Below are positions 6,849 to 47,955 of a stretch of DNA of 64,000 nt, piece by piece. The position numbers and the translations under genes are program-made. Origin of the DNA: Cohaesibacter intestini (GTDB taxonomy: Bacteria > Pseudomonadota > Alphaproteobacteria > Rhizobiales > Cohaesibacteraceae); the NCBI RefSeq assembly GCF_003324485.1, contig NZ_QODK01000003.1:310001-374000 (forward strand). The letters are read 5' to 3'. Under the pieces are notes generated by a model. The model was not told the origin of the DNA. It ran no database searches and saw only the letters and a list, made by a program, of their open reading frames with translations. The stretch's first letter is position 1, and each line of letters starts with the position of its first letter.

Positions 6849-6860
6849 CAGGTGATTCCC

Positions 6861-8621
6861 TTATCCTTTGATTTCGGTCTTCTGGGACGGTTTCGGCTTG
6901 GGATGTCCCTGAGGTCGCGATTGCGGTGCAGGTACCTTCGATGAGTCTTTCGGGGCGTGTTTTGGCATCGACATCTTGCGCGCTTTTGGGCCGGGCAGGG
7001 TCACAGCGTCCTTGTCTTGGACTGGATCTAGGGCAGGATCTGCCTTTGTATCTGACACTGCCCCGGCATCCGACTTTGCCTCCATTGGCTGCGCAGCTTT
7101 TGCGTCCGCGTCTGATGCTTTGACCATTTTTTCCGCTTCCGGTGGCAGCAAATAGCCGGTTACCGAGCGATGCTCCTGAAAATAGGTTTTGGCAGCTGTG
7201 ACCACCTGATCCGCGGTTGCTCCGGCAAGGCGCTGTGGCCAGCTTTTGATTCGCTCCAGTGTCGAGCCCGAGGTCAGGTTTGTGCCAACAATCCGCGCCA
7301 GTGTTGCCTGATTGTCCTGCGCAAAGAAGCCATCAGCCAGCATCGAGCGTTTGGCGCGTTGCATTTCCTCGTCAGTGACCCCGTCGGCAATGAGCTTGGC
7401 AATCTCTCCTTTGATGGCATCGAGCACATCCTCGACATTTTTGCCTTCAGCGGGGGAGCCATAGAATAAGAAGCTTGTATCATCGAGGCCACCGGACATG
7501 TAAAATGCCCCCGCAGACGTCGCGACCTTCTGCTTGATCACCAAAGACTGATAGAGCCGGGAATTGGTGCCGGAACCCAAAATATAACCAAGAATATCAA
7601 GGGCCTCAGCTTCCCCCGGTGCGGCGGAGGTTTCCGAAGGCGTCATGTATGAGCGTCGCACACTGGGTTCGCGCACCCGCTCGTGGCGCAAGGTGACGGT
7701 TCGGGCAGTGCGCTGCGGCGGTTCGGAGACCCGAATTCGCGGCGCGATATCGGCACGTTTGGCAATTTTCCCGTAAGTCTCTTTGGCCAATGCTTTGACT
7801 GCATCCGGGGTGACGTCCCCGGCGACAATCAGGATGGCATTGTTGGGTGTGTAGAACTTCTTGTAGAAATCGAGCGCGATTTCGCGGTTCAATCCCTTCA
7901 TTTCATGTTCCCAGCCAATGATCGGAATGCCGTAGGGGTGATTGCGATAAAGCGCAGCGCCCAACGCCTCGCCCAACTGGGCTGCAGGGTTGTTGTCAAT
8001 CCGGCTGGCGCGTTCCTCGAGGATCACCTGCAATTCAGGTTCGACCTGTTCCTTGCGCAGTTCCAGATTAATCATCCGGTCTGCTTCCAGTTCCATCATC
8101 AAGCGCAGATGCTGTTTGGCAACCCGTTGAAAATAGGCGGTATAGTCTTGCGACGTGAAGGCATTTTCCTGCCCGCCGATCGAGGCCACGATTTTGGAAA
8201 ACTCCCCGTCCGGATGGGCTGGAGTACCCTTGAACATCAAATGCTCGAGAAAATGCGCGATTCCCGACTTGCCCGGTTCTTCGTCAGCTGCTCCGACCTT
8301 GTACCAGACCATATGGGTGACCACGGGCGCCCGATGATCGGGAATCACCACCACCTGCATGCCATTGTCCAGCGAGAAACTGGCAAAATTGCTGCCAAGC
8401 TCTGGCAAATTGGAAAGATCCGAGCCCAGCAACGCGGAAACAGAAGGCGTGCCATTTGTCTTGGCTTCGGTCTGATTGCTGGTTGGGACCGACGGGGGAG
8501 CGGCGGAACCTGCCACTTCGGCCGACGACAACATCGTGCTGCCAAGAAAGCCACCAGCCACTAAGACCGTCAACAGGGCCAGTTTCGGGGAACGACTGTT
8601 AAGCAAGGAGCGAATTGGCAT
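6861..8621 (-). CDS. M16-family zinc peptidase, catalytic-type partner
   Basis: Exported zinc metallopeptidase of 586 residues. The N terminus MPIRSLLNSRSPKLALL leads into a hydrophobic segment ending near SSAEVAG, a signal peptide or anchor. The inverted zinc motif HFLEH is at 123-127, followed by the distal glutamate region MELEADRM. The C-terminal M16 domain follows. The last 80 or so residues are a low-complexity Lys/Pro/Ala tail, unusual for the family. ATG 8621 is set by GGAGGTTTG directly upstream. It is first in an operon with the non-catalytic partner 12 bp downstream. Peptide or misfolded-protein degradation in the envelope is the family expectation; the substrate is unknown. Confidence 0.92.
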   Translation of the reverse strand: MPIRSLLNSRSPKLALLTVLVAGGFLGSTMLSSAEVAGSAAPPSVPTSNQTEAKTNGTPSVSALLGSDLSNLPELGSNFASFSLDNGMQVVVIPDHRAPVVTHMVWYKVGAADEEPGKSGIAHFLEHLMFKGTPAHPDGEFSKIVASIGGQENAFTSQDYTAYFQRVAKQHLRLMMELEADRMINLELRKEQVEPELQVILEERASRIDNNPAAQLGEALGAALYRNHPYGIPIIGWEHEMKGLNREIALDFYKKFYTPNNAILIVAGDVTPDAVKALAKETYGKIAKRADIAPRIRVSEPPQRTARTVTLRHERVREPSVRRSYMTPSETSAAPGEAEALDILGYILGSGTNSRLYQSLVIKQKVATSAGAFYMSGGLDDTSFLFYGSPAEGKNVEDVLDAIKGEIAKLIADGVTDEEMQRAKRSMLADGFFAQDNQATLARIVGTNLTSGSTLERIKSWPQRLAGATADQVVTAAKTYFQEHRSVTGYLLPPEAEKMVKASDADAKAAQPMEAKSDAGAVSDTKADPALDPVQDKDAVTLPGPKARKMSMPKHAPKDSSKVPAPQSRPQGHPKPKPSQKTEIKG

Positions 8622-34132: not shown

Positions 34133-34220
34133 GTATTGCGACAAGTGGTTGAGTTCCTTCTGGCTATTTCATAAGCTTCATCACAGAGATCAGTGCCCCC
34201 TCAGCAATGGAACTCATGCC

Positions 34221-35363
34221 TTGTCCCGTCCCTTGCCTTACCCGGATCTTTACACCTTGAAAGATCGCTCTCGCCTGCCTCCGGCGTTGCAGACAGCGCT
34301 ATTCGAGTTGGGCAAGGCAATCCGGGAAGGAACCCTACATCCCGAGCAGATTGATGCCTTTCGTGTTGCACTGGCAGAGCTGCCCGCCTCGGCGGTCGTG
34401 GATGCAGCCGGGGTCATCTCCAAATGTGCAAAGCTCAATTGGCGGGTCGATTGGTCCACCTGCAGTCAACCCTCTGAGCAGTCGGTTTTTGATGAACTCA
34501 AGAGGGATCTGCCGGAGGGGTTGCTAAGTGTCAAAGCCCCTTTCCTCACCAAGGAACTGCGCTTGATGCAGACCCCCCCGCATCTATGTTGGTTGTTCGC
34601 CTATCACGATTCTGGCTATGTCCGGCAAATGGCGATGCACCTGATCAATATGCCACCTGCGTCTCCATTTGACGTCGGCACTCTTGTCTATCGGATGAAT
34701 GACTGGGTCGCTGCTGTGCGCAAGGCAGCGCTTGATAGCGCCAAACGGCTGTTGCCGCTGACAGACACTGCGGTCATCGCCGACAGCGCTTTGTTCCTTC
34801 TTGACTATTCAAAGCACCTCATCCGATGGGATCCAGAAGCCAGAGCGTTGGTTGATACGGCAATGCAGAGATCCGAATGTCTGGCCGCCATCATAGAGCT
34901 GATCTGTGAAAGCCGTGATGGAACCGGAGCGAAAGGATTGAAGGCTCTTTTGCCCAACGAGGACCTCGACCCCCATATCCCGACATTGGCAGCAGAAGCC
35001 TCCCAGCCTCATCTGCGGGCTCTGGCCATGCAGATATTGCTCAGCGGTGAAGTCTCATGGATCGACGGTTACAAGCCGGGCCTGATCGAAGATTATCGTG
35101 GCCGCTTCATGCAGGAGCGCAATGTTGTCTGCCGTCCTCTCGGCCTGAAGGTCGATCTCGACTTCTGGATCGAGGCAGCCGCATCGGACAAATCGGCCAG
35201 TGTGCGCAAACTGGCGGCGGATGCCCTCATAGCCAGACGGGAGACTGCAAGCCCGGCACTGGATGCTTTGGCGCTCCAATTATGCACTGATCGCAATGAG
35301 GCTGTCGCGGAGCGGGCACGCTTTTACTTGGAAAAGCGGTCGAGCGAACCCGTGATGAACTGA
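34221..35363 (+). CDS. hypothetical HEAT-like repeat protein
   Basis: About 380 residues, probably soluble and all-helical; no family recognised. Helical pairs with hydrophobic periodicity suggest HEAT/ARM repeats (YVRQMAMHLINMP, WVAAVRKAALDSAKRLLPL, ASVRKLAADALIARRE, EAVAERARFYLEKR). The start is uncertain: no ATG is in frame before residue 100. TTG 34221 (SRPLPYPDLYTL) has GGAA eight bases upstream; a TTG at 34149 would add 24 residues. ATGs at 34207 and 34216 are in another frame and stop quickly, so a frameshift or an unusual start is possible. Confidence 0.6.
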   Translation: MSRPLPYPDLYTLKDRSRLPPALQTALFELGKAIREGTLHPEQIDAFRVALAELPASAVVDAAGVISKCAKLNWRVDWSTCSQPSEQSVFDELKRDLPEGLLSVKAPFLTKELRLMQTPPHLCWLFAYHDSGYVRQMAMHLINMPPASPFDVGTLVYRMNDWVAAVRKAALDSAKRLLPLTDTAVIADSALFLLDYSKHLIRWDPEARALVDTAMQRSECLAAIIELICESRDGTGAKGLKALLPNEDLDPHIPTLAAEASQPHLRALAMQILLSGEVSWIDGYKPGLIEDYRGRFMQERNVVCRPLGLKVDLDFWIEAAASDKSASVRKLAADALIARRETASPALDALALQLCTDRNEAVAERARFYLEKRSSEPVMN

Positions 35364-35693
35364 TTCAATGCTGTCTTGAAAGGCAGCTTGCACCTCTGAT
35401 TGACTGGTTTTTGAGCGCTCAGAGACTACCAAAACGGGTATGTCGAGCTATTTCGACATATTTGTGGGGATCCTGATCGCGGGTCTGGTCTTCGCCCCAT
35501 TGTCATGAAACAGTTGTCGCAGGCCGCTAACTTGGCTCGCACTTCAGACGGCTGACGGTGCGCTGAAGACGAAATTCCTTAAGCCATGCTGTCCATATCG
35601 CTCAGACACAAAGAAGCGGGGCTCACTTGCATGGCGGCTCTGGACGTGTCCAGACGAGGGGAGACATAGTTTCTTTTGGAGGTTTCAACCATT
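35364..35693. other. leader region of the 5'-nucleotidase gene
   Basis: 330 bp without a gene. A stretch TTGTCAT at 35500 followed by TTGTCGC at 35514 resembles a PHO box, but the spacing is three bases too long. Confidence 0.35.
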
Positions 35694-37304
35694 ATGAAAA
35701 CACTTTTCACTGGCGTGGCTGCCTTGGCTCTGACGGCAGGATTTGCCAGCTCTGCCAATGCGGATTTCTCTCTCAACATTCTCCATATCAACGATTTGCA
35801 CTCCCGGATCGAGTCGATCAACAAGTATGATTCGACCTGCAACGCCAAAGGCGAAGAAGAAGGCAAATGCTATGGTGGTATCGCGCGCGTCAAAACGATG
35901 ATCGACCAGCGTCGCGACGCACTGAAAGCCGCAGGCAAGAATGTTCTGACCATCGATGCCGGTGACCAGTTTCAGGGGTCGCTCTTCTATTCCACCTACA
36001 AGGGCGCTGCCGCAGTCGAGTTCATGAATGGCATTGGCTTTGACGTCATGGCCGTTGGCAACCACGAGTTTGACGATGGCCCGAAAGGCCTCTCTGACTT
36101 TGTTGACAAGGCCGAGTTCCCGGTCATTTCCGGCAATATCGACGTCTCCAGCGAACCGCTGCTCAAAGGCAAGATCAAGGGCTACATCGTCAAGGAAGTC
36201 GGTGGCGAGAAAATCGGTCTCATCTCCACCTTGGCAGAAGACACCGTTGAAACCTCGTCTCCAGGCGACAAGGTCATCTTCTCTTCGTCCGAGGATTATC
36301 TCAAACAGGCCGTGCAGGAACTGACAGAACAGGGCGTCAACAAGATCATCGCTGTCACCCATGAAGGTCTGCCAAAAGACATGGATCTTGCCTCCAAGGT
36401 TGCTGGCATCGACCTGATTGTTGGTGGCCATTCCCACACCTTGCTCTCCAACACCGACAAGAAGGCCGCAGCCCCTTATCCGGTGATGGTCAAGAATCCG
36501 GACGGCAAGGACGTGCCGATCGTGCAGGCCTATGCCTATTCGAAATATGTTGGCGACATCGAAGTGACCTTTGATGACAAGGGCGAAGTCGTCTCTGCCA
36601 AGGGCGATCCGATCCTGCTCGACAAGTCTGTCCTGCCGAACGAAGCCTTTGCCAAGCGCGTTGCTGAGCTGGGTGCGCCAATCGAAGAGCTGAAAGTCAA
36701 GGTGATCGGCTCCTCCAAGGCGTTGATCGACGGGTCTCGCGAAAAATGCCGCCAGATGGAATGCGAAATGGGTAACCTCGTCGCCGATGCCATGCTGGAG
36801 CGCATGAAGGGGCAGGGCATCTCCATCGCCATCCAGAATGGCGGCGGTTTGCGTGCCTCCATCAATGATGGTGAAATCACCATGGGCGAAGTTCTTACCG
36901 TTCTGCCATTCCAGAACACCGCTGCGACCTTCCAGTTGAAGGGGGCCGATGTGGTTGCCGCTTTGGAAAATGGCGTCTCTCAGGTGGAAGAAGTCAAAGG
37001 CCGCTTCCCGCAGGTCGCCGGTCTGAAATTCAGCTGGACCCGTGCCAAGCCAGTTGGCGAGCGCATCACTGCCGTTGAAGTGATGCAAGATGGCAAATGG
37101 GCCCCTATCGACATGGAAGCCACCTATGGTGTGGTCTCCAACAACTATATGCGCTCTGGTGGCGACGGCTATAAAGTCTTCAAAACCAACGGCATGAATG
37201 CCTATGATTATGGTCCGGGCCTTGAGCAGCTTGTTGCAGATTATCTGTCCAACAATCCCGATTATGCGCCCGTGATTGACGGCCGTATCAGCGAAGTCAA
37301 ATAA
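35694..37304 (+). CDS. secreted 5'-nucleotidase / metallophosphatase (UshA-like)
   Basis: Periplasmic two-domain nucleotidase of 536 residues that dephosphorylates nucleotides or nucleotide sugars. Signal peptide MKTLFTGVAALALTAGFASSANA. Metal-site motifs of the N-terminal calcineurin-like domain: ILHINDLHSR, IDAGDQFQGS, VGNHEFDDG, THEGL and VGGHSHT. The C-terminal substrate domain has IQNGGGLRASI, LPFQNTAATFQLKG and NNYMRSGGDGY, which stacks the base. ATG 35694 follows GGAGG. A terminator follows the stop, so it is monocistronic. Probably part of phosphate or nucleoside scavenging. Confidence 0.94.
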   Translation: MKTLFTGVAALALTAGFASSANADFSLNILHINDLHSRIESINKYDSTCNAKGEEEGKCYGGIARVKTMIDQRRDALKAAGKNVLTIDAGDQFQGSLFYSTYKGAAAVEFMNGIGFDVMAVGNHEFDDGPKGLSDFVDKAEFPVISGNIDVSSEPLLKGKIKGYIVKEVGGEKIGLISTLAEDTVETSSPGDKVIFSSSEDYLKQAVQELTEQGVNKIIAVTHEGLPKDMDLASKVAGIDLIVGGHSHTLLSNTDKKAAAPYPVMVKNPDGKDVPIVQAYAYSKYVGDIEVTFDDKGEVVSAKGDPILLDKSVLPNEAFAKRVAELGAPIEELKVKVIGSSKALIDGSREKCRQMECEMGNLVADAMLERMKGQGISIAIQNGGGLRASINDGEITMGEVLTVLPFQNTAATFQLKGADVVAALENGVSQVEEVKGRFPQVAGLKFSWTRAKPVGERITAVEVMQDGKWAPIDMEATYGVVSNNYMRSGGDGYKVFKTNGMNAYDYGPGLEQLVADYLSNNPDYAPVIDGRISEVK

Positions 37305-37327
37305 GCGTCATTCGTTGTTTGGTATCG

Positions 37328-37357
37328 AACCCGGCAGGCCAATGTCTGCCGGGTTTT
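37328..37357 (+). terminator. terminator after the 5'-nucleotidase gene
   Basis: AACCCGGCAG pairs perfectly with CTGCCGGGTT around GCCAATGT, then TT. Confidence 0.88.
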
Positions 37358-37477
37358 CTGTCGCTCGCCAAAGAGGCCAATTGGCGCACCGGCGTCATTT
37401 GGTTGAGACACGTCTGGCGAGGCTCTACAATGGCGGCGGCATTGCACCGGATGCACATCAAAAGGGGAGAAAGACGG

Positions 37478-38143
37478 ATGAACCTGATACTGGGACTGAC
37501 GCTAGCCTTGATCGTCTTTCTGATGGCCAACGGGCTTTATCGTGTGATCAATCGCCCACGGGCAAAGCCGATTGACAAGACTGCTCGACCCAACTCAGCT
37601 TTGTTGGTGATCGACATGCAGCATGATTTCACCCGTGCCAGCGGCAAGTTGGCCCATGATCCCGAGCGACGTCTTGTTGCTTTCCACCAGATCAATGAAC
37701 TGGCGGCCGAGGCGCATCAGCTCGGTATCCCGGTGATCGAAATCAGTCATGCCTTCACCGATCCGCTGGAAAAACTTGTCGTCAAGATCATCGCAGGTGG
37801 CGCTGGCATCGAAGGCTCTCTGGGGCTCAAGCGAGACGATGCGCTGACCTATGAGGCCAATTATCATGTTTGGAAGCATGAGGGGGACAGCTTCACTGCA
37901 CCCATGTTCACCCGCTATCTCGATGATCATGAAATCGGCCATCTCTACATCACAGGACAGGATGCAACGGCTTGCATCAACGCAACCGCCAAGGCAGCTC
38001 TCAAGCGTCATTATGACGTCACCCTGATCGACGATGCGATCCTTGCCCGCAATGGGGGAAAGTGGCAGGCAATGAAGGACAAACTCCTTGCTTCAGGGGC
38101 AAGGCTCGCAACCGGTTTGGGTTTGTCAGCAGGCCCAGTATAG
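37478..38143 (+). CDS. membrane-anchored isochorismatase-family cysteine hydrolase
   Basis: 221-residue cysteine hydrolase with an N-terminal hydrophobic anchor (NLILGLTLALIVFLMANGLY), unusual for this mostly cytosolic family. The catalytic triad D46 (LLVIDMQHDF), K133 (HVWKHEGD) and C166 (GQDATACINATAKAAL) is intact. Family members hydrolyse nicotinamide, ureas or isochorismate; the substrate here cannot be read. ATG 37478 follows AAAGGGGAG; longer frames from 37319 lie across the preceding terminator and are not coding. Confidence 0.87.
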   Translation: MNLILGLTLALIVFLMANGLYRVINRPRAKPIDKTARPNSALLVIDMQHDFTRASGKLAHDPERRLVAFHQINELAAEAHQLGIPVIEISHAFTDPLEKLVVKIIAGGAGIEGSLGLKRDDALTYEANYHVWKHEGDSFTAPMFTRYLDDHEIGHLYITGQDATACINATAKAALKRHYDVTLIDDAILARNGGKWQAMKDKLLASGARLATGLGLSAGPV

Positions 38144-38325: not shown

Positions 38326-38402
38326 CGGAGTGTAGCGCAGCCTGGTAGCGCACCTCGTTCGGGACGAGGGGGTCGGAGGTTCGAATCCTCTCACTCCGAC
38401 CA
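38326..38402 (+). tRNA. tRNA-Pro (anticodon CGG)
   Basis: 77-nt cloverleaf. The acceptor CGGAGTG pairs with CACTCCG, the discriminator is A, and CCA (38400-38402) is encoded. The anticodon stem CCTCG/CGAGG holds the loop TTCGGGA, giving anticodon CGG, which reads proline CCG codons. The T arm is GGAGG-TTCGAAT-CCTC(T). A TTGAAA/CATACT promoter-like pair lies at 38284-38310. Confidence 0.95.
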
Positions 38403-38710
38403 TTTTCCAAAACAGATGCCTCTTCAGAATGCCATCGGACGTGCATGCCTCAAGCCGCCGAGATGAGAATCCTTGTCTGTATTCCGTCTTGAAGAAAAAG
38501 CCGGGACATGACGGCCCACGCCTGATCATCAATCACATTTTTGTGAGCCGGTGCTTTCATACGTCCAGAAATTCAAGCAGTTACCTCTGCAGAGCCTGAC
38601 CCACCTGCGGAAAGCAGTTCACTTGGTTTTACAACGACCAACTTTTCTCTATCATGAGGGAATATGCTTAGTTGTCTTGTTTGATATTGATTTGATCTCT
38701 GGGTGGAACA

Positions 38711-40516
38711 ATGCCTTTTCCGAACCTGTTTTTCTTGCCCCGGTCGCTGGCCGTGGCAATCGTGTCTGTATGTGTCTCTTTCATCTCACTGTTTGGCCCA
38801 TTGCAGGCGACGCGTGCACAAACCGCCGGGGAAGTGCTGTTCGTCCTTGACGGGTCCAACTCCATGTGGGGGCAGATTGATGGCATCGCCAAGATTGCCA
38901 TTGCCAAGGATGTCATGAGTGATCTGATCACCGACTGGGATGCCAAGGTTCCCGTTGGCATGATGATCTATGGGCACAGGCGGAAAGGGGATTGTCAGGA
39001 TATTGAAGTGGTGGCAATGCCCGGACAGGTCGATAGACCCCTGCTGATCGACAAGGTCAAATCCATTTCCCCCCGTGGCAAGACCCCGATCAGTCTGTCT
39101 CTGACCATGGCGTCTGCTCAGCTCCTTTTGAAAAATCTTGGCAAGTATCCCAAACCACGCTCTTCTCTGGTGCTGGTCAGTGACGGTCTTGAAACCTGTG
39201 GGGCCGACCCCTGCGAGACCGCGCGCAATCTCGATTTGGCCAATCCCGGTTTGGATGTTCATGTCATCGGCTTTGATGTCACCAACGAGGAATCCCTTGC
39301 ACTTCAATGCATCGCAGACAATTCCGGGGGCAAATTCTTTCGTGCCAACAATGCCAGTGAATTGCAGGCGGCGCTGAAGGAAACCGTCAAGTTGGCCAAG
39401 GCCGAGCCCAAGCCCGCCCCGCCGCCAGCCCCACCTGCGACAGCCTCAAAGACTTCCGAGCCGGAGCCGGCGGACCCTGAGCCATCCCTGTTCCTCTATG
39501 CCAAATTGTGTGAAAGCTGCGATCGGCTCGCGGCCAACAAAGTCCGCTGGTCGGTCAAGGAAAGAGACGGAGGAAGCCTTTATGAAGGTCTCGGCATCCT
39601 TTATCCCTCTGACCCTGTTTTGGCTCCGGGACGGTATCCAGTGACCGCACGCTATGAATCAAGCGTACTGGTCCGGGACACCGAGCTGATCATCGGAGAC
39701 GATGGCCAGCAAGTTGGCGCGGTCAATCTGATGGGTGGCACGGCCACACTTTTTGCCTATGCGACCGACGACAAGAGCATCGCCGCCGACCCGATACTCT
39801 ATCAGTTCTTCCCCCTCAAGGATGGTAAGGCTGCGGCCAAAGCCTTGACCGAGGCGGCCTCGTCCAACAGCCTGACATGGTTGCCCGCAGGGCGTTTCAA
39901 GGTCGTGGCATCCCACGGCACAATCAAGGAAAGCGCTGAAATCGACATTCTGCCGGGAGAGAAAACCCGCCACGACTTCGACATGCGCGTGGGTTATATC
40001 CAGCCCAGCTCGGTTCTCAGCGCTGGCACCAAACCCTTGGGTGGCTTTGCGGATTATGCGGTGTTCAAGACCGAACAAGACGCCCGGACCAAACAAACCC
40101 TCGATAGCTTGCTTTTCCTGCCCGGATCGCAAAAAGCCAAGAAGCCGCTGAAACCGGGGCAGTATGTCATCAAGGCCTTCGTCAATTACAATCGCGGCGG
40201 CCCCTCGATGTCGCGAATCTTTCCGCTCGAGATCAAGGCCAACGAAACCGCAACGCCCCAGCTTGACATGCAAGCTGGATTGCTGAGCCACAAAGTCGGC
40301 AGCGCCAGCGGGCAGCGGATCATCAATATCGATTACATGCGCGCCAGCGATGACAAACGGGTCCATTACTTCAATCAAGGCACGACCAAGACGCTGGCTT
40401 TGCCACAGGATCGCTACTATCTGCGTGTGATGATTTCGGGCGGCAAGACCTTCAACACCGATGCATTCGATATCAAGGTCGGGCAGGCAACCAATCTGGA
40501 TGTGGCCATTCCGTAA
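38711..40516 (+). CDS. exported von Willebrand factor A domain protein
   Basis: 601-residue protein exported by an N-terminal signal peptide (SLAVAIVSVCVSFISLFGPL to TRA). The VWA domain follows at once: MIDAS residues D47-x-S49-x-S51 (FVLDGSNSMWG), the Thr site in RGKTPISLSL, and SDGLETCGAD. A Pro/Ala/Lys linker (about 235-260) leads to beta-rich repeats (LTWLPAGRFKVVASHGT, LLFLPGSQ, LKPGQYVIKAFVNY) that resemble carboxypeptidase-regulatory-like folds. VWA-MIDAS proteins bind partners through a metal. It is followed closely by a coiled-coil protein gene, with which it probably forms an operon. Confidence 0.82.
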   Translation: MPFPNLFFLPRSLAVAIVSVCVSFISLFGPLQATRAQTAGEVLFVLDGSNSMWGQIDGIAKIAIAKDVMSDLITDWDAKVPVGMMIYGHRRKGDCQDIEVVAMPGQVDRPLLIDKVKSISPRGKTPISLSLTMASAQLLLKNLGKYPKPRSSLVLVSDGLETCGADPCETARNLDLANPGLDVHVIGFDVTNEESLALQCIADNSGGKFFRANNASELQAALKETVKLAKAEPKPAPPPAPPATASKTSEPEPADPEPSLFLYAKLCESCDRLAANKVRWSVKERDGGSLYEGLGILYPSDPVLAPGRYPVTARYESSVLVRDTELIIGDDGQQVGAVNLMGGTATLFAYATDDKSIAADPILYQFFPLKDGKAAAKALTEAASSNSLTWLPAGRFKVVASHGTIKESAEIDILPGEKTRHDFDMRVGYIQPSSVLSAGTKPLGGFADYAVFKTEQDARTKQTLDSLLFLPGSQKAKKPLKPGQYVIKAFVNYNRGGPSMSRIFPLEIKANETATPQLDMQAGLLSHKVGSASGQRIINIDYMRASDDKRVHYFNQGTTKTLALPQDRYYLRVMISGGKTFNTDAFDIKVGQATNLDVAIP

Positions 40517-40577
40517 CGTGGTCATTGCACGCGCTGGCAATGCGTCGGGGATCGGTATGAAATGCGGAGGTGGGATG

Positions 40578-42818
40578 ATGAGTGGGACGGCAAGGGACGT
40601 GTCAAAGGGCGGGGGCAACGCCTTGGCTGCTCTCGCAGGGCTTCTGTTTGCCATGATGGCGACTGTCTCCCAGGTCGGGGCGGAGACCGGGGACAGGTTT
40701 CAAACCCTCCTGTCGCGGGTGGAAGCCTTGCAGCAGCGCGCAGGCAACAAGGCAAGCGACTGTTCCGAGGACGCATGTGGTCCCAAACAATGTCGTGGCG
40801 AAGCCCATATTCTGGCCGATCTCACCAATGTCAGAACCGCGCTGGACCGCTATGCGGAAACGCTCGAAGCCGAAGAGGCGTTGCTGGAGAAGGCCAATCT
40901 GGAGGCCATAACCAACAATGACCGCCTGTCCGGTCAACTCGAAGCCGCCCGGATTGCAGCCAGTTCATCGCGGGCAACTGACGAAATGCTCGGCACTGCG
41001 ACCGAGGTTAATGGCGTCATCGACAATCTAAGGGGCATGGCCCAACAGTCCCTCACTGAGACACTCCGCAATCCGGCTGCCATCTGGGAGACGATCAAGG
41101 ATCTCAATTCTCTGCTCAATCGCTTTGACCACAGCTACAACCATCTCCAGCATCAGGTGGAGTCCATCACCTACCAGCCGGATGTCAGTGATGCCGCGGC
41201 CAAAGACCGGATCAACCTCAAGGCATTGCTTGAGGATAGCCTGCTGATTGACAATTTGCCCTTGATCAACGAGGCAGGCAGGACCGCCATCAAGGAGAAT
41301 AGCAGCAACGCGGTTGACGCTCTGAGCGCCCGTGACGAACTGGTCAAAATGCAAAAGGAGTTGAAGGAGCTTGGTGCAATGGCCGACACTTGGCAGAAGG
41401 AAGGCACAAAGGCCCTTTCCGACGCCAAGGCAAAAGTGCGGGCCAATGCGATGCGCAATGTCGCTTTCGCCATGACCCAGATTGCATCGCGCTATGTGAA
41501 GACCAAAATTTCCGAACCAGCCCTGACGGATTTTCGCGCCAAGATTCAAAAGGCACGTCAACAATTCGCAGCTCAGGGACATCCATATCTCAAACAAGTC
41601 GCCGCGCAGGAAGAGGTCCGCGATCAGCTCAGCCGCCTGTCAAAACTGGACGCCAAGCTGAAAAAGGCGATCGATACGATTGCGCCTTGCGCTCATAGCC
41701 GCTGCAATTCCACCACTGCGACCCGCGGGCTTGTCGATTTGCCACCGCTTGAACGCGATCCGCGCAATGGCAAAGTGCGGCTCCAAGAAGCGCAAACGGA
41801 CTTGCAGGGCAAGCTCGACCAGATGGTCGGAGCGCTTGAAGGCCATCTTGAAACGGCGGCGGCAGAGCTTCACACCATCACGGATGATGATTTGATCTTC
41901 AAACCGCAATGCGCCCAGTGCCGCTCACTGGCTTTGGACCTCAAGGCCAATGGCGACAGGCTGGCTTTTGTTGGCAAACGCCTCGCCGCCTTGCCCGATA
42001 CCAATGTCTCAGAATTGCGCGCCATGAAAAACAAGCGCGAGGCGCTATTGCGTGAGGCCGAAGAGGCCAATGCTCTCTACAAGGAGCGCACAGAAGGGCG
42101 CATCGGTCGCAAGTTCGGTAAGTTGCATGCGGACGGTCAGGCAGAGTTGCTTGAGATTGCACGCACCATGCGTCGTCTGGCCGGAGAGGCACGAACCCTG
42201 CGCCACAAAATCCGCCGTATCGAGGCGATCAACAATGAAAATACGGCCTTGATCCGCGCCCAGACGGCGGGAAAACAGGCCCAGAAAGCCCTGCTGGAAC
42301 GCTTCTATGCCTGCAATGACAGGGTTTGTCGTGGGCAGGAAAAGCCAACACAGGCCGAGCTGATGCCAAACAATGGGGCGCAGCAAGGATCTGAATCCGT
42401 GGCAGACAGGCGCGATCCGGACTGTGATGAAGAGGCACCAGGTCGACCCGGCTCCAAAGGCGTTATGACCAAGGTCACCACGACACCGCTGGGTGCGACG
42501 CCGTCGGTCAGCACATCGGTCACGACCACCCCCCTTTCGGTGTCCGAACCATCCAGCAATCCCGCTCTTGTTGGCAAAATCACACCATCCGCCCCCCCAG
42601 TGAAACAGGAGAAAGGCGATGCAGTTCTGTTGAGCTTTCCGGGCATCTTCGAGAATGTCTATTTTTGCAACAAGCCAGGAAATGGCGGCAAATTAAGCAG
42701 ATGTGTCGATGAAATCGAAACGAACGATGAGTGTTGGGTGCCGCGCTGGATCGCAGCCAAAGGCGTCAAAAGCTGCAAAGAGGCAATCGCGTTGGAGAAG
42801 AAAGGCCGTGATCAGTAG
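40578..42818 (+). CDS. exported cysteine-containing coiled-coil protein
   Basis: 746-residue protein of no recognised family, with a signal peptide (NALAALAGLLFAMMATVSQVGAET). It is almost entirely alpha-helical with heptad-like Leu/Ala spacing, broken by cysteine pairs (CSEDACGPKQC, CAHSRC, CAQC, CNDRVC) that could form disulfides or bind metals. A Thr/Ser/Pro-rich segment precedes a short C-terminal domain with four more cysteines. ATG 40578 is chosen because GGAGG sits seven bases before it; ATG 40557 is also possible. It starts about 60 bp after the VWA gene stop and shares its export signal, so the pair probably acts together outside the membrane. Confidence 0.7.
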   Translation: MSGTARDVSKGGGNALAALAGLLFAMMATVSQVGAETGDRFQTLLSRVEALQQRAGNKASDCSEDACGPKQCRGEAHILADLTNVRTALDRYAETLEAEEALLEKANLEAITNNDRLSGQLEAARIAASSSRATDEMLGTATEVNGVIDNLRGMAQQSLTETLRNPAAIWETIKDLNSLLNRFDHSYNHLQHQVESITYQPDVSDAAAKDRINLKALLEDSLLIDNLPLINEAGRTAIKENSSNAVDALSARDELVKMQKELKELGAMADTWQKEGTKALSDAKAKVRANAMRNVAFAMTQIASRYVKTKISEPALTDFRAKIQKARQQFAAQGHPYLKQVAAQEEVRDQLSRLSKLDAKLKKAIDTIAPCAHSRCNSTTATRGLVDLPPLERDPRNGKVRLQEAQTDLQGKLDQMVGALEGHLETAAAELHTITDDDLIFKPQCAQCRSLALDLKANGDRLAFVGKRLAALPDTNVSELRAMKNKREALLREAEEANALYKERTEGRIGRKFGKLHADGQAELLEIARTMRRLAGEARTLRHKIRRIEAINNENTALIRAQTAGKQAQKALLERFYACNDRVCRGQEKPTQAELMPNNGAQQGSESVADRRDPDCDEEAPGRPGSKGVMTKVTTTPLGATPSVSTSVTTTPLSVSEPSSNPALVGKITPSAPPVKQEKGDAVLLSFPGIFENVYFCNKPGNGGKLSRCVDEIETNDECWVPRWIAAKGVKSCKEAIALEKKGRDQ

Positions 42819-42827
42819 GGGAAAAAG

Positions 42828-42873
42828 CCACGTGTCAGACGGCCGTGAGACCATCTGACACGTGACGCTTTTT
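42828..42873. terminator. bidirectional terminator
   Basis: CACGTGTCAGA (42829-42839) pairs perfectly with TCTGACACGTG (42854-42864). A run of As lies before it and Ts after it, so it serves both convergent units. Confidence 0.88.
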
Positions 42874-43615
42874 AGTGGAGATAGGCGCCACCACAAACCG
42901 GGTTATAGGTGCCGGTGACATGCCCACTTTTCGGATCAGCAAGGAAGCGAACCGTATTGGCAACATCGTCCGGTGTCGCAATCTTCTGGGTCGGAGTGAA
43001 GTTGCGGATCATCTCCTTGAACTCGTCAGGAGCGTCTTTCGTCGCATCGGTTTCCACCAGCCCAGGGGCCACAATATTGGCCGTGATGCCGTGCGGGCCG
43101 AGTTCCTGCGCGAGGTATTTGCAGAAGCTGTCCAACGCGCCTTTTGCCGTTCCATGGGCGATAAAGCTTGGCGCAGGGGCTTCCGAGAGCGTGCTGGAAA
43201 TGAAAATCAGACGACCAAACCCTTTGTTCCGCATGGAATCCACGGCCAGTTTTGCGGCCTGATAGGATGCGTGCATTTCGTCGTTGAGTTTCTGGGAGAA
43301 TTCTTCCCAGCTCTGGTCGACAAAAGGCTTTGCCGTGAAATGCATGTTGGCGTTCGACACCAGCACATCAACGCCACCATAGTCGCGGTCGATGGTGGCA
43401 AACATGTTGGCAAGCTCGGTATCGTCGCGCACGTCGGCACGAAGGGATACAGCCTCACCGCCTGCTTGCGTGATTTCAGCAACCAGAGCGTCGGCCGCTT
43501 CAACGCTGTTTACGTAATTGATGAAAACCCGGTAGCCATCTTCAGCCAGGGCTTTTGCACTAGCCGCACCAATACCTCTGGCTCCTCCGGTAACGAGCGC
43601 GTTGCGTTTGCTCAT
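42872..43615 (-). CDS. SDR-family oxidoreductase with altered active site
   Basis: 247-residue short-chain dehydrogenase related to FabG. Cofactor motif TGGARGIGAAS is intact; NNAG is changed to SNAN (87-90). The active-site serine is at 140/141 (FISSTLS) and K158 is present, but the tyrosine of Y-x-x-x-K is histidine (H154, IAHGTAK). Dehydrogenase chemistry is therefore uncertain. A few SDRs are known to lack the Tyr or to function as binding proteins. Encoded 57 bp behind the MarR gene on the same strand; probably co-transcribed and under its control. Confidence 0.85.
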   Translation of the reverse strand: MSKRNALVTGGARGIGAASAKALAEDGYRVFINYVNSVEAADALVAEITQAGGEAVSLRADVRDDTELANMFATIDRDYGGVDVLVSNANMHFTAKPFVDQSWEEFSQKLNDEMHASYQAAKLAVDSMRNKGFGRLIFISSTLSEAPAPSFIAHGTAKGALDSFCKYLAQELGPHGITANIVAPGLVETDATKDAPDEFKEMIRNFTPTQKIATPDDVANTVRFLADPKSGHVTGTYNPVCGGAYLH

Positions 43616-43672
43616 GTTTCATCTCCATTGTTTGATCAAGTTGTGGGAATGTTATTTGGCGCAGCTTCGCGA

Positions 43673-44149
43673 TCAGGTCTCTGTTGAGGGGGCTGATGTC
43701 TTGTCGTTGCAACTGCGCAAATTCGTAACGATCTTGACGAGCAATTGTTTGGTGTTGACCAGCTCGTCCTTAGCGATCTCTGTCTCTGCATCGCGCAACA
43801 CGGAGCGTGCGATTTCGGAGCATCGGGCGGCGAGTGCCTTGGCGTCTGGCGTGGCGATCAACACATGCTTGCGTCCATCGTCGGTGTCTTTTGTGCGTTG
43901 GACCCAGCCGCGCTTTTCAAGGCCGACAACAAGACGGCTGACGCTGGATTTTTCCAAATAGAGCGCTTCAGCCAATTCGGTTTGCGACAGGCCCTCCATA
44001 TTGATCAGGACCAGAAGCGCACCCCATTGTTCGGCGGTCATGCGAATGCCCGCATGATGGAAGCGCGAAACCAACAGGTTGCTGAACAACCGGTTGGCAA
44101 GGCCCGTGAGGTGGCCCAAAGATTTTTCAATGTCATACAGCTGGGTCAT
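43673..44149 (-). CDS. MarR-family regulator
   Basis: 158-residue winged-helix repressor. The pattern MTAEQWGALLVLINMEGLSQTELAEALYLEKSSVSRLVVGLEKRGWVQR is the standard MarR wHTH, followed by D-G-R-K in the wing (DDGRKHVL). Several Cys residues near the C terminus (ARCSEI, RSCND) could allow redox sensing. ATG 44149 is chosen; upstream residues show no homology. A near-palindrome AGTTG-N6-CAACT lies 4-19 bp upstream of this start, the natural autoregulatory site. Transcribed ahead of the altered SDR. Confidence 0.88.
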   Translation of the reverse strand: MTQLYDIEKSLGHLTGLANRLFSNLLVSRFHHAGIRMTAEQWGALLVLINMEGLSQTELAEALYLEKSSVSRLVVGLEKRGWVQRTKDTDDGRKHVLIATPDAKALAARCSEIARSVLRDAETEIAKDELVNTKQLLVKIVTNLRSCNDKTSAPSTET

Positions 44150-44152
44150 GAA

Positions 44153-44168
44153 AGTTGTATATGCAACT
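44153..44168. promoter_or_regulatory. putative MarR operator
   Basis: AGTTG-TATATG-CAACT with perfect 5-bp outer arms. It immediately precedes the MarR start codon on the minus strand. Confidence 0.55.
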
Positions 44169-44293
44169 AAATTCCTGCTGTCAATCGGAATGACACGATT
44201 GTCGCAGTGGTTTCCCCGGAATCGACAAAGGGGCAGGTGTTCAACCTGTCCCTTTGTTTGACGATGATGGGTCGCAAGCAAGTACGGATTGAC

Positions 44294-44707
44294 CTACTGA
44301 GCCCAGCGCTGCTGCAATGGCAGCTTGAGGGCAAAGGCGCCGCTGCCCAGAAAGACAATGGCAATCTGAACGGCGATCCAGAAGGCAGGATATTCCCAGC
44401 CTCCGCCCTGACTGGCAAAGGAGAAGCCGTTGCCAGCATGCACAAATGTTGCGCCCAAAAGCGTCGGGATGAGCGCCAAAGCGGCGATCCGGGTGGCTGT
44501 GCCTGTGATCAGGGCGAGGCCACCGCCCAACTCGGCAAAGATGACGAGATAGGCAAACAGGGCGGGAAAGCCGAGGCTTTCGAAAAAACCGACAGTGCCG
44601 GGAATGGTGAAAACAAACACCTTGGTCAAACCATGGGAGAGGAACAGGGCACCAGAGGTGACCCGCAGGACAAAGGCGGCGAAGGGAGCGGTTTGGCTAT
44701 CAATCAT
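44294..44707 (-). CDS. DoxX-family membrane protein
   Basis: 137-residue protein with four hydrophobic segments. The DoxX pattern is FVLRVTSGALFLSHGLTKVF then LVIFAELGGGLALITG and ATFVHAGNGF. DoxX-like proteins are linked to quinone or thiol redox processes and to detoxification clusters; no catalytic function is fixed. The ATG at 44707 has only a weak ribosome site. It is divergent from a LysR gene 215 bp to the right, which likely controls it, and lies upstream of the MarR/SDR pair but with its own gap. Confidence 0.88.
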   Translation of the reverse strand: MIDSQTAPFAAFVLRVTSGALFLSHGLTKVFVFTIPGTVGFFESLGFPALFAYLVIFAELGGGLALITGTATRIAALALIPTLLGATFVHAGNGFSFASQGGGWEYPAFWIAVQIAIVFLGSGAFALKLPLQQRWAQ

Positions 44708-44922
44708 GGTCAGGGTCTTTCATAAAAGCTGTCGGGCGGAGTAGGGGCCACCACCTGGATTTGTGGGTATCGAAGGATGCGTCCCGTTCGGCGCTTGACT
44801 GTCTTGCGCTTCAGAGCGGGATGCCTTGGGATGGCGCCACTATGCCTCTTGACTAAATTCAATGAAATGGCGAAAAAGCGGAATGTCTATCCTTATTTTG
44901 TTCTTAATATAGGAGCCGCCCC

Positions 44923-45822
44923 ATGGATCTCGTCGATTGCATGAAAGCCTTTGTTGCCACCGCGCAGACCGGATCCTTCACCGAAGCGGCCAACCGGCTG
45001 GGTATGTCGAACCGGCTGACATCGAAATATGTCGCAGAACTGGAAAGCCGCATAGGCACGCGCTTGTTGCAGCGAACCACCCGCAAGGTCGGTCTGACGC
45101 CGGCTGGGGAAGATTTGCTCGCACGTGCGCCTGCTCTACTGGATGAACTCGATGATCTCATCGGCTCGATGTCGGAACAGTCGAAAGGCTTTACGGGCTT
45201 GTTGCGTATTTCCGCACCCGTCACGTTTGGCGAGGTTTACATCCATGCCATGATCCGGCGGTTCGCGGCACAGCATCCCGCCTTGAAGATCGATCTGCGC
45301 CTCAGTGATGCCTATATCGATCTGGCCAAGGAGGGCATCGATCTTGCCTTTCGCATCGGGACGCCCAGTGTCTCGTCCCTCAAGGCCCGCAAGTTGGGCA
45401 TGCTCGCCAGCCATCTGGTGGCATCGCCGGACTATGTTGCGCAATATGGAGCGCCCAGCCGACCGGAAGACCTTGTGGACCATCGCTGCATTGTCGATAC
45501 CAATCGGCGCGATCCCTCCCGTTGGACGTTCATCAAAGCGGGAGAGACAAGCACGGTGCAAACCAACCGCCACTTCATGGTCAACAGCGCACGGGTGGCA
45601 AATGAATGGGCCATCGCCGGAGAAGGAGTTGCCTATTGTCCTGCTTTTGTGGTCGCCGATGCGATGGATAAGGGTGCTTTGGTGCCTTTGTTGCCGGACT
45701 ATCAAATGGAAAGCCACCCGATCAGCGCGGTTTATCTGTCAGGCACTGTTCTGCCCCGCAAGGTCAGAGGCCTGATCGACTTTGCCCTTGCGGATATCCG
45801 CGACAAGGGGCTGCTGGAATAG
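44923..45822 (+). CDS. LysR-family regulator 1
   Basis: 299-residue LysR-type regulator. HTH: MDLVDCMKAFVATAQTGSFTEAANRLGMSNRLTSKYVAELE, then RIGTRLLQRTTRKVGLTPAGE. The effector domain is of the CrgA/DsdC-like group (LRISAPVTFGEVYIHAMIRRF). ATG 44923 follows AGGAGCC. It lies divergent from the DoxX gene and just before the YgiD/YqjG pair, either of which could be its target. Confidence 0.9.
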   Translation: MDLVDCMKAFVATAQTGSFTEAANRLGMSNRLTSKYVAELESRIGTRLLQRTTRKVGLTPAGEDLLARAPALLDELDDLIGSMSEQSKGFTGLLRISAPVTFGEVYIHAMIRRFAAQHPALKIDLRLSDAYIDLAKEGIDLAFRIGTPSVSSLKARKLGMLASHLVASPDYVAQYGAPSRPEDLVDHRCIVDTNRRDPSRWTFIKAGETSTVQTNRHFMVNSARVANEWAIAGEGVAYCPAFVVADAMDKGALVPLLPDYQMESHPISAVYLSGTVLPRKVRGLIDFALADIRDKGLLE

Positions 45823-46137
45823 CTTTTGATTAAGAATATTTCATGGATAGTTATTCTATATATACGCCATTTTGTTGACGAGTGTTAAGGCGCATAGTGG
45901 CTCCAGAAGAAAGGCAAGGGTTGGTTTGGCCGATCCTTTGAAGTTTGGAGCAAAGACATGAACAGCGCAAAAGATACCATGGTCGTCCTCGGGTCCAGAA
46001 GAGGGCCAATGCCAGCGAAGGTGATTGGCAGAGCCATTCTGTGCCTGCTGCGTGACGCCTCAACGCGCCCCTTTGCGTGGTCTGATTGCCTGTTTTCCTC
46101 CCGTGCCTGACAATTTCCGACAAGATTGGAGCCACTC
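45823..46137. other. intergenic region before the YgiD-type gene
   Basis: 315 bp. It contains AGAATA and TATTCT (arms of an inverted repeat 13 bp apart) near 45833-45857 and AT-rich DNA. No gene is credible. A TTGACG hexamer at 45875-45880 has no well-spaced -10. Confidence 0.4.
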
Positions 46138-46962
46138 ATGAGTGCATCATATGCCCTTGAAAAACTCAAAGACCGCCTGACGCTGTCCGAACGTATGCCA
46201 GTGGTCTTTCTGGGTCATGGTAGCCCGATGAATGCCATAGAAGACACCCCCTATTCCCGCAGCTGGACCGATTTGGGCAAGAGCTTGCCCCAGCCTCAGG
46301 CGATTCTGGTGGTTTCGGCACACTGGATGACCCGAGGCCATACGCTGGTCGACATTTCCGCAATGCCTAAAACCATTCACGACTTTTATGGCTTCCCTCA
46401 ACAACTCTATAACGAGACCTATCCTGCCAAGGGGGATCCGGAGTTGGCCCGCGAGGTGGTCTCCCTGCTTGCCAGCCATCATGCGCAAGAGGATGACCGC
46501 TGGGGCCTTGATCATGGGGCCTGGACGGTGCTGAAATTTCTGTTTCCAAATGCAGATGTGCCGGTCTTCCAACTCTCCATCGATCTTGCCATGCCATTTG
46601 AAGAGCATCTCGAGGTGGGCAAGACCTTGGCCAGCCTGCGCGATCGTGGGGTGCTGATCCTTGGCTCAGGTAACATCGTACACAATCTTCATGCCCTGCG
46701 GATGGACGGCAAGGCACATGACTTTGCCCTCGCGTTTGACGCCCATTTTGAACAGCGTTTAACGGCTCGGGACATGGGGGCCTTGGCCGATCGCAAGGCC
46801 ATGGGCAACCTGTTCCAGCTCGCCCATCCCTCGAGCGACCATTATATTCCGGCCCTGACGATTGCCGGGGCGGCAAGCGAGCAAGACACGCTCACCTATT
46901 TGACCGAAGACCTGGCAATGGGGGCTGTTTCCATGCGCTCTTTTATTTTCCACGGCAGCTAA
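46138..46962 (+). CDS. ygiD: extradiol ring-cleavage dioxygenase-like protein (YgiD/DODA class III)
   Basis: Zinc or iron enzyme of the class III extradiol dioxygenase superfamily, 274 residues, resembling E. coli YgiD (a DOPA 4,5-dioxygenase in vitro). The metal/active-site histidines sit in FLGHGSPMNA, VSAHWMTRGH, HDFYGFP, GLDHGAW and PSSDHYIPAL, all conserved. ATG 46138 is preceded by GGAG. It is 24 bp before the GS-hydroquinone reductase gene, so both are co-transcribed. Catechol-type substrates and quinones are a natural pair for these two enzymes. Confidence 0.93.
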   Translation: MSASYALEKLKDRLTLSERMPVVFLGHGSPMNAIEDTPYSRSWTDLGKSLPQPQAILVVSAHWMTRGHTLVDISAMPKTIHDFYGFPQQLYNETYPAKGDPELAREVVSLLASHHAQEDDRWGLDHGAWTVLKFLFPNADVPVFQLSIDLAMPFEEHLEVGKTLASLRDRGVLILGSGNIVHNLHALRMDGKAHDFALAFDAHFEQRLTARDMGALADRKAMGNLFQLAHPSSDHYIPALTIAGAASEQDTLTYLTEDLAMGAVSMRSFIFHGS

Positions 46963-46986
46963 GCCCCAAAGCAAAGGAACAGAACC

Positions 46987-47955
46987 ATGCTTGTAAATGG
47001 CAAATGGACCAAGGACTGGCAGCCGGTCCAGAAATCGGACAAAGAAGGCCGCTTCATTCGGCAAGTCTCGTCCTTTCGCAATTGGATCACCCCGGACGGA
47101 CGCCCCGGACCGACAGGGAATGGCGGCTTCAAGGCTGAAGCCGGACGCTATCGCCTCTATGTTGCGTTGATCTGCCCATGGGCTTCGCGCACACTGATTG
47201 CCCGCAAATTGAAAGGGCTCGAAGAGATTATTCCGGTGACGGTGGTCAATCCGGTGCTGTCCGATGAAGGATGGCAGTTCGGTGGTTATCCCGGTGTCGA
47301 TGAAGACCCTCTTTTCAAGGCCACCTATCTGCATGAGATCTATAGTCGGGCGGATACCAATTTTACCGGTCGTGCAACAGTGCCGTTCCTGTGGGACATA
47401 CAGCAAAATGTCATGGTCAACAATGAAAGCGCCGACATTCTGCGGATGTTTGATTCTGCTTTCGATGCGATCATCCCGTCTGATTTGCGCCTTTATCCAG
47501 AAGCCTTGGGAGACGAGATCAATCGCCTCAATGTCGAGATTTATGACAAATTGAACAACGGGGTGTATCGCGCAGGCTTTGCCTCAAGCCAGCAAAGCTA
47601 TGACGAAGCGGTTTCCGATGTCTTTGGCATTCTGGACAGGCTGGAAAGCCGCCTTGAAGGACAGGACTATCTCATTGGCAACCAGCTGACGGAAACAGAT
47701 ATCCGCACTTTCGTCACGCTCATTCGCTTCGATGCGGCCTATCATGGCATCTTCAAGACCAACCGCAGACAGATTAAGGATTATGCCAACCTGTCTGCCT
47801 ATATGGAGCGCATCCTGCGTTTGCCCGGCGTGATCGAGACGGTGAATATGGATCATATCACCCGCGGCTATTACGCGATCAAGGCCCTTAATCCGCTGGG
47901 CATCAGACCAACCGGCCCAGCCCATATCGAGGCTTTGCTCGCATCGGTGGCCTGA
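46987..47955 (+). CDS. yqjG: glutathionyl-hydroquinone reductase (YqjG/Ecm4 type)
   Basis: Xi-class glutathione transferase of 322 residues that reduces glutathionyl-hydroquinones. The active site CPWA (C63 in ALICPWASR) is the hallmark of the class, followed by VNPVLSDEGWQF, GRATVPFLWD, NESADILRMFD and YLIGNQLTETDIRTFVTLIRFDAAYHGIFK. Detoxifies halogenated or other quinones. ATG 46987 follows AAGGAAC. It shares an operon with the YgiD-like dioxygenase gene; a convergent gene starts 26 bp after its stop. Confidence 0.96.
   Translation: MLVNGKWTKDWQPVQKSDKEGRFIRQVSSFRNWITPDGRPGPTGNGGFKAEAGRYRLYVALICPWASRTLIARKLKGLEEIIPVTVVNPVLSDEGWQFGGYPGVDEDPLFKATYLHEIYSRADTNFTGRATVPFLWDIQQNVMVNNESADILRMFDSAFDAIIPSDLRLYPEALGDEINRLNVEIYDKLNNGVYRAGFASSQQSYDEAVSDVFGILDRLESRLEGQDYLIGNQLTETDIRTFVTLIRFDAAYHGIFKTNRRQIKDYANLSAYMERILRLPGVIETVNMDHITRGYYAIKALNPLGIRPTGPAHIEALLASVA

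Follow-up and report, generated by a model that had tools for sequence, protein, structure and literature searches.

Two adjacent genes in the window, the 64,000-nucleotide stretch of Cohaesibacter intestini DNA analysed here, appear to be the local form of an envelope cassette that is apparently undescribed. In it the VWA protein is retained, and the large protein beside it belongs to different and seemingly unrelated kinds from one bacterium to another. The best reading is that of a patchily distributed, envelope-associated cassette of VWA, SH3b and large proteins with a variable large component, of which the window holds a reduced two-gene form. A VWA gene of the relevant clade and, directly downstream, a large exported-looking protein without a Pfam domain are present, while the SH3b gene (0 in the genome) and a partner homologous to any of the partner families A, B or C are absent. 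The features of the region are the following:

38326..38402, plus strand: tRNA-Pro(CGG), the left edge of a variable segment
38409..45845, no strand: 7.4-kb variable segment, missing at the same site in the relative G012, carrying the VWA pair and SDR, MarR, DoxX and LysR genes
38628..38655, plus strand: weak sigma-70-like promoter match, TTTACA-16-TATCAT, 55 bp upstream of the VWA start
38711..40516, plus strand: gene of an exported-looking VWA protein, 601 aa, recognised by Pfam VWA, MIDAS and Cys conservation, and tree
40517..40577, plus strand: 61-bp gap between the VWA and coiled-coil genes, with GGAGGTG before 40578 and no terminator-like site listed in the scan
40578..42818, plus strand: gene of an exported-looking coiled-coil protein with CX4C pairs, 746 aa, found in this genome only among the collections searched
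42827..42866, no strand: strong inverted repeat between two convergent units, from terminator scan and folding

The product of the first gene carries a Pfam VWA domain (PF00092, E 6.2e-10, 40 bits against a gathering cutoff of 23.8) at about residues 42-220, followed by a Pro-rich linker and a C-terminal half, and the codon usage of its ORF is coding-like (score 123, own gene caller). The first-pass annotation had described a complete MIDAS in this protein, and D47, S49 and S51 were indeed found, together with T125 and D158 (DxSxS...T...D), which we take to be the MIDAS Thr and Asp from their position and from general knowledge of VWA domains. All five positions are invariant in 24/24 aligned homologues, 12 inside the clade and 12 outside it. 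The C267xxC270 motif of the C-terminal half is clade-wide, and this half is probably beta-rich, because a sub-threshold match to PF13620 was obtained for residues 563-599. The hydrophobicity profile of the protein has a single hydrophobic stretch, which is N-terminal and would suit a signal peptide, and no further membrane segment. Inspection of residues 1-40 by eye revealed no L-x-[GA]-C lipobox, C21 being inside the hydrophobic run.

Read as its longest ORF, the second gene would begin at 40461, overlapping the VWA gene; a start at 40578, with GGAGGTG just before it, gives 746 aa, and starts giving 753 aa (40557) or 747 aa (40575) are also possible. Codon usage, scored for the longest form, is coding-like (139, own gene caller). 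The only hydrophobic stretch of the 746-aa protein is its N-terminus, again consistent with a signal peptide. The earlier proposal that both products are exported is therefore in line with a single N-terminal hydrophobic stretch in each, a criterion of hydrophobicity and not of a signal-peptide predictor. The protein has 14 cysteines (62, 67, 72, 371, 376, 445, 448, 579, 584, 616, 697, 709, 719 and 733), among which there are four CX4C pairs against 0.25 expected, at least four being found in 0/5000 shuffles. The periodicity of its hydrophobic residues is strongest at 3.5, as in coiled coils. Its initial description as a helical protein with repeated cysteine pairs thus holds, as does its assignment to no family, since the best matches were all at noise level (E 0.02 in Pfam, 0.03 in NCBIfam, 0.02 in PHROGs, 0.07 in PADLOC and 0.4 among PDB sequences). 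The structure model is poor (pLDDT 46.6) and mostly helical in content, and a Foldseek search with it found 0 matches at E 0.001.

Homologues of the 746-aa protein were found at E 0.001 in 0/17 other genus members and 0/60 other relatives, and none was accepted among 296 other genomes of the order or among plasmids and phages. Likewise, a search of genome contigs and viral contigs with exact short patterns, which reaches close relatives only, returned none. When the threshold was relaxed to E 1, two genus members gave matches of E 0.2. Two matches in the order were rejected. The match in G035 (E 0.008) is a short frame adjoining a trpA-like gene. The match in G218 (E 0.001) covers 88 residues of a 734-aa protein among flagellar-looking genes, read as FlhA-like; proteins of this kind are widespread, yet it was the sole one among 297 genomes to match.

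With regard to gene organisation, the two genes had been noted as adjacent and some 60 bp apart, and a gap of 61 bp on the same strand was measured. The number of sigma-70-like matches in the region, 2, is close to the 1.8 expected by chance. The scan lists the repeat at 42827..42866 (18 pairs) as a terminator-like site for the minus strand alone, and so for the SDR gene; it folds with a z of -3.8, 0/200 shuffles folding as well. On the plus-strand side of this hairpin TTTTT follows a few bases further on, and the hairpin may also end the VWA unit. The VWA and coiled-coil genes would be co-transcribed.

The window VWA belongs to a clade of 12 rows (support 100/100, midpoint root). A large protein of 835-1200 aa follows the VWA gene in 8/12 of the closest loci, sometimes beyond an SH3b protein of about 133 residues, and a Pfam domain was found in 0/8 of these large proteins. 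Synteny in relatives, the lack of which would have refuted the initial proposal, stands in part: the 746-aa protein occurs in no relative (0/17 in the genus and 0/60 among the other relatives, E 0.001) and the exact pair is not syntenic, while VWA homologues followed by a large domain-less protein recur in 8/12 loci. A non-VWA gene on the same strand, at least 700 aa long and no more than three genes and 600 bp away, was present in 8/11 clade loci with a called VWA gene vs 3/72 VWA loci outside the clade, with a Fisher p of 6e-7 that is descriptive, because the clade set was fixed after the neighbourhoods had been seen, L073 (a VWA fragment) was left out of the tree, and the room filter (more than 3.5 kb) was applied to outside loci alone. 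The count becomes 8/12 with L061, whose VWA was missed by the gene caller and where no partner was seen; the four clade loci without a large partner are L033, L061, L063 and L065. The partner in L064 has an N-terminus that is only weakly signal-like.

Relatives of the SH3b protein (Pfam SH3_3) were found in 6/106 fetched loci and relatives of the YARHG protein (Pfam YARHG) in 4/106, every one in the clade. No SH3b relative was found in L034, L060, L061, L063, L065 or L073, and no relative of the SH3b and YARHG proteins of L032 was found in the window's genome. Elsewhere, G018 has SH3b and a protein with a family-A match of 150-220 residues, without VWA, and G036 has VWA, SH3b and a family-C protein. 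However, 20/22 further loci with an SH3b relative show neither a VWA nor an A-C partner within about four genes, which rules out SH3b as an exclusive cassette marker. The proline-rich tail of some partners was considered as an SH3b ligand and is too variable for use. That the cassette came from a phage or a plasmid found no support: viral contigs contained no relatives of the VWA and family-A alignments, and neither the family-A protein of L059 nor the family-C protein of L062 had a match in plasmids. A VWA match occurs in 68 plasmid records, none with a place covering 80% of the protein, and among the 20 matches listed coverage extends over about residues 2-228.

The large partners form three sequence families (A, B and C), none of which matches the window partner (probability at most 0.24% against the three profiles in hhalign). 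The window VWA is sister to that of L032 (support 95/92) among family-A loci, and since it is nested there, its partner has probably been exchanged or has diverged past recognition. It is quite unlikely, in our view, that the coiled coil descends from family A, as a true orthologue changed past recognition, and is not a replacement. The nested position would agree with this, as would the much faster evolution of the partner (L032 and L059 share 56% identity in VWA and about 23% in the partner) and the long predicted helices of family A, which come from a low-confidence model of three sequences (pLDDT 49.6; 0 Foldseek matches at E 0.001). Against it, BLAST, hhalign and tblastn gave no match between the window partner and family A despite 62% VWA identity between the window and L032, while family-A partners from loci with similar or lower VWA identity can still be matched with one another, those of L032 and L059 at E 4e-24. 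Moreover, all four clade members of family A have a hydrophobic stretch at about residues 340-390 that the window partner lacks, and cysteines number 1-6 in families A-C (1-4 in family A) vs 14 here. In MAFFT, unrelated partners were pairwise 20-27% identical, which is background and was left unused. We infer partner exchange rather than extreme divergence. That the large proteins act as effectors, secreted or dependent on cell contact, e.g., pore-forming, with VWA and SH3b as export or immunity helpers, appears very improbable. A variable large component beside a conserved helper would suit such effectors, as would the C-terminal module common to families A and B and the mid-protein hydrophobic stretch of family A, also present in one of two family-C members tested; however, no large protein has a Pfam domain, fold matches were not significant, and the window protein has no hydrophobic stretch past its signal.

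The genomic site bears on whether the two genes belong together at all. The 7.4-kb segment is missing in G012, the nearest relative by flank identity, and integrase genes lie next to the same tRNA-Pro in 3/12 fetched genus loci holding that tRNA. Together with the restriction of the coiled coil to this genome, these observations would fit accidental neighbours: the coiled-coil gene would be cargo with no relation to the VWA gene, carried at a hot spot of integration beside tRNA-Pro, and the VWA protein would act alone, e.g., as an adhesin. This we regard as unlikely: the genes share a strand and are 61 bp apart with no terminator-like site listed between them, and large proteins stand behind close VWA homologues elsewhere, in G010 at a site away from this tRNA-Pro. 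The tRNA-Pro 3' end has no exact repeat of at least 12 bases elsewhere in the window, and no integrase was found among the six segment genes searched with Pfam; the segment may have been gained here or lost in G012. The SDR, MarR, DoxX and LysR genes, identified by Pfam, are passengers that we do not claim as part of the VWA pair.

CglB and BatA are VWA proteins of bacterial envelopes, and the window VWA scored 14.0 bits against the CglB model (NF033757, equivalog cutoff 200) and 18.6 bits against the BatA-like model (NF047508, cutoff 380). McaA/McaB, as described in the part of the source used here, serve magnetosome positioning, McaA being a VWA protein from a magnetotactic bacterium that has a predicted periplasmic location and a MIDAS both intact and critical for function (PMC9512821). 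The resemblance lies in an intact-MIDAS VWA, which in McaA acts together with a second protein; however, McaA is reported to have a TM segment and a cytoplasmic C-terminus, and the window VWA has a single N-terminal hydrophobic stretch. Bd0875, according to the portion of its report considered, is a VWA/MIDAS adhesin that a Gram-negative bacterium exports; it also contains a small beta-rich domain, and its function requires the MIDAS (PMC11003981). Unlike the window VWA, which by eye has no lipobox and carries its extra sequence C-terminally, Bd0875 has a lipobox and a MIDAS domain inserted in the small domain. The MoxR-vWA ternary conflict systems, as far as the sections covered describe them, likewise combine a constant VWA component with variable further ones (PMC7159879). 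However, they are centred on a MoxR AAA+ ATPase, none of which was found with Pfam among nine neighbour genes (34149-38143 and 42872-47955), and the window pair is exported-looking. YARHG and SH3b wall-associated proteins have also been described (PMC3355149); YARHG and SH3_3 occur in fuller relatives of the locus, and both are absent from the window. The main text of that paper has 0 occurrences of 'Helix-turn-helix', and no VWA neighbourhood was found in the part of it covered.

From the gene organisation we infer that the two proteins co-operate. That one transcription unit encodes two exported proteins with a joint role in the envelope or at the surface, with a constant VWA and a variable partner slot, is in our judgement an even call; against joint function, the window partner has no homologue, and its link to VWA rests on one genome. 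Both proteins would be periplasmic or at the surface and in physical contact. The MIDAS may hold a metal and, together with the C-terminal half, would capture or position the long exported partner. The partner slot would be filled by families A, B and C in other lineages, and here by a coiled coil that local disulphides probably stiffen. The small SH3b protein of fuller loci may tie the assembly to the cell wall, as is usual for such domains, and the divergently transcribed, probably DNA-binding transmembrane YARHG protein may regulate the locus through wall sensing. A wider and tentative proposal, which we consider possible though doubtful, is an undescribed modular envelope system of alphaproteobacteria, in which a fixed MIDAS-VWA receptor, often with SH3b and a YARHG-type transmembrane regulator, displays a giant exported protein drawn from several unrelated ones. 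Horizontal transfer would swap the partners, or they would change very rapidly, as in systems exposed to arms-race or kin-recognition pressure, and the window partner would be so far unique.

To our knowledge, exported VWA proteins are frequent in bacteria, and most of them lack a known ligand. A clade with a fixed VWA protein and a swapped apparent partner names candidate ligands for direct tests. If the proposal is true, it would be a variable envelope system that family libraries have missed, because its large proteins match no Pfam model.

The gene pair under study and the elements around it are as follows.

38326-38402, tRNA-Pro(CGG), beside the variable segment; with 5'-nucleotidase and isochorismatase genes it makes up the left flank
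38711-40516, plus strand, VWA gene: 601 aa, hydrophobic N-terminal signal, Pfam VWA domain, Pro-rich linker, then roughly 340 more residues
40578-42818, plus strand, gene of the 746-aa partner: signal-like N-terminus and cysteine-bearing C-terminal tail
42827-42866, strong inverted repeat between the VWA/partner unit and a convergent SDR gene
from 46126, LigB-type dioxygenase and GST genes

The Pfam VWA domain covers residues 42-220 of the 601-aa protein (E 6.2e-10), and a sub-threshold PF13620 match lies at the end of its C-terminal part. Residues D47, S49 and S51 of the metal-binding site (MIDAS), together with T125 and D158, the last two assigned by position, are invariant in all 24 aligned homologues. 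The partner gene starts 61 bp after the VWA gene, and its product shows a hydrophobic period of 3.5 residues and four CX4C pairs against 0.25 expected (0 of 5000 shuffles). The first-pass annotation of adjacent signal-bearing genes, one with a complete MIDAS and the other with repeated cysteine pairs, is sound, since both genes, their signals, the MIDAS and the pairs were found as stated. The inverted repeat was scored terminator-like by the scan on the minus strand only; its plus-strand RNA folds well too, with TTTTT a few bases past the stem.

No relative of the 746-aa partner was accepted in 17 other genus members, 60 other relatives or 296 other order genomes (overlapping sets), nor in genome_contigs, viral contigs, plasmids or phages, and profile libraries and PDB sequences gave nothing above noise. 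Two genus members match at E 0.2, and two weak order-level matches were judged spurious. Among the collections searched, the protein is unique to the window's genome.

Many genomes match the VWA domain as such (44 of 61), but few have the full architecture: the C-terminal 343 residues match at E 1e-10 in 5 of 397 order genomes, spanning 4 of 141 genera, and in 2 of 385 class genomes. All of these counts include the genome of the window. Further named loci, from the best 80 of 396 relatives in genome_contigs, belong to Labrenzia, Oricola (two), Hoeflea, Leisingera and Roseibium, to MAGs of Phyllobacteriaceae and Rhizobiaceae (one each) and to an unclassified alphaproteobacterium. In a midpoint-rooted tree of 24 VWA proteins, the window protein falls within a fully supported clade of 12, whose named members are alphaproteobacteria; locus L073 (L-numbers denote fetched loci in relatives, G-numbers relative genomes), a VWA fragment only, was joined to the clade set by its C-terminus. 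Tandem pairs of different wider-family VWA genes occur in several order genomes (L048, L050, L051, L035).

A large protein is encoded downstream of the VWA gene at 8 of 12 clade loci, the window not counted, by our simple codon-usage caller, in which starts and small genes are approximate. The loci sort by partner family.

Family A: L032, L058, L059, L060
Family B: L034, L064
Family C: L062, L073
No large partner: L033 (SH3b only); L061 (neighbourhood read by eye), L063, L065 (none)

None of the eight has a Pfam match above cutoff, and seven have an N-terminal hydrophobic stretch above our threshold, the L064 partner lying just under it (1.22 vs 1.4). In hhalign (E 2e-6), about 110 columns at the C-terminus align between families A and B as a common module. 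Family C has no match to A, nor by BLAST to B, and the window partner matches none of the three. Beyond the module, the remainder of the family-B proteins (L064:11538-14189 and L034:158-3001) is without match to family A. At L073, a third gene (5948-8617), after the VWA fragment and the family-C gene, encodes transglutaminase-like and TPR domains. Of 87 VWA loci outside the clade, some of them possibly near-duplicates, 15 were dropped for too little room; the 72 that had over 3.5 kb of room include 3 where the same position is taken by a gene encoding 700 aa or more. The clade's excess (Fisher p 6e-7; L061 and L119, with no VWA called in either, left out) is a descriptive value, since the clade set was fixed after the neighbourhoods had been seen, and the room filter was applied outside the clade alone.

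The window VWA is sister to that of L032 (support 95/92), nested among family-A loci. The VWA proteins of window and L032 are 62% identical, and their partners show no match even at E 10; those of L032 and L059 are 56% identical, and their partners match at E 4e-24. Partner replacement is the simpler way to account for this pattern; very fast divergence of the window partner may account for it too.

In L032, L058, L059, L062 and L064, a gene for an SH3b-domain protein of about 133 aa separates the VWA gene from the partner gene, with an extra called 164-aa frame between SH3b and partner in L064; in L033 an SH3b gene also follows the VWA gene. SH3_3 was shown by test in L032 and G036, the other assignments being by similarity. 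SH3b relatives (E 1e-8) occur in 22 of 347 order genomes. As an exclusive marker of the VWA/SH3b/large-protein cassette SH3b is ruled out, because 20 of 22 further loci have neither a VWA nor an A-C partner within about four genes; the other two are G036 (VWA-SH3b-family C, its VWA protein different and shorter) and G018 (SH3b with a family-A-like protein, VWA being absent). Cassettes of this sort tend to hold the closest SH3b relatives: of the five at least 57% identical, four lie in one (G010, G018, G031 and G036; G321 not). A family-A profile matches 2 of 367 order genomes (G010, G018), each time adjoining SH3b. At L182:7372-9556, a peptidoglycan-binding-domain protein (PF01471) directly follows a close SH3b relative, with no VWA there.

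Upstream of VWA, a divergent YARHG-domain gene is present in L032, L064 and L073 (by Pfam) and in L034 (by similarity). The first three proteins have a hydrophobic stretch near residue 125, and we read the N-terminus as probably HTH-like, with one sub-threshold HTH_3 match. Within the genus, the YARHG regulator and a clear SH3b relative occur only in G010; the SH3b match in G006 is weak (E 7e-4). At G010's second VWA locus the regulator is split over two overlapping frames (L034:4922-5732) and may be broken or misassembled. YARHG and SH3_3 domains have both been tied to the cell wall (PMC3355149), peptidoglycan binding by YARHG being its authors' hypothesis.

Over the left flank the genus member nearest to the window is G012 (81%). 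There the same flank genes run through a short spacer straight to the dioxygenase and GST genes, so 38409-45845 is absent, which may reflect either gain in the window or loss in G012. The same 7.4-kb segment carries SDR, MarR, DoxX and LysR genes (42872-45822). Gene content past tRNA-Pro(CGG) varies between species of the genus. An integrase gene adjoins this tRNA in 3 of 12 fetched genus loci holding it, and the site resembles a hot spot of integration within the genus. The integrases are PF00589 members in three other species (L147, L148, L154).

We propose that the metal site or the C-terminal half of the VWA protein would serve to capture or position the exported partner close to the cell wall, the partner slot varying among loci. 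Precedents for the proposed role of the metal site are McaA, whose MIDAS mutant fails to complement (PMC9512821), and Bd0875, which is impaired by MIDAS mutations (PMC11003981). Among the matches listed in open-licence PMC literature the VWA-SH3b-large-protein cassette is not described, which is not proof of absence. Its parts are of known kinds; their combination with a variable partner seems to be new.
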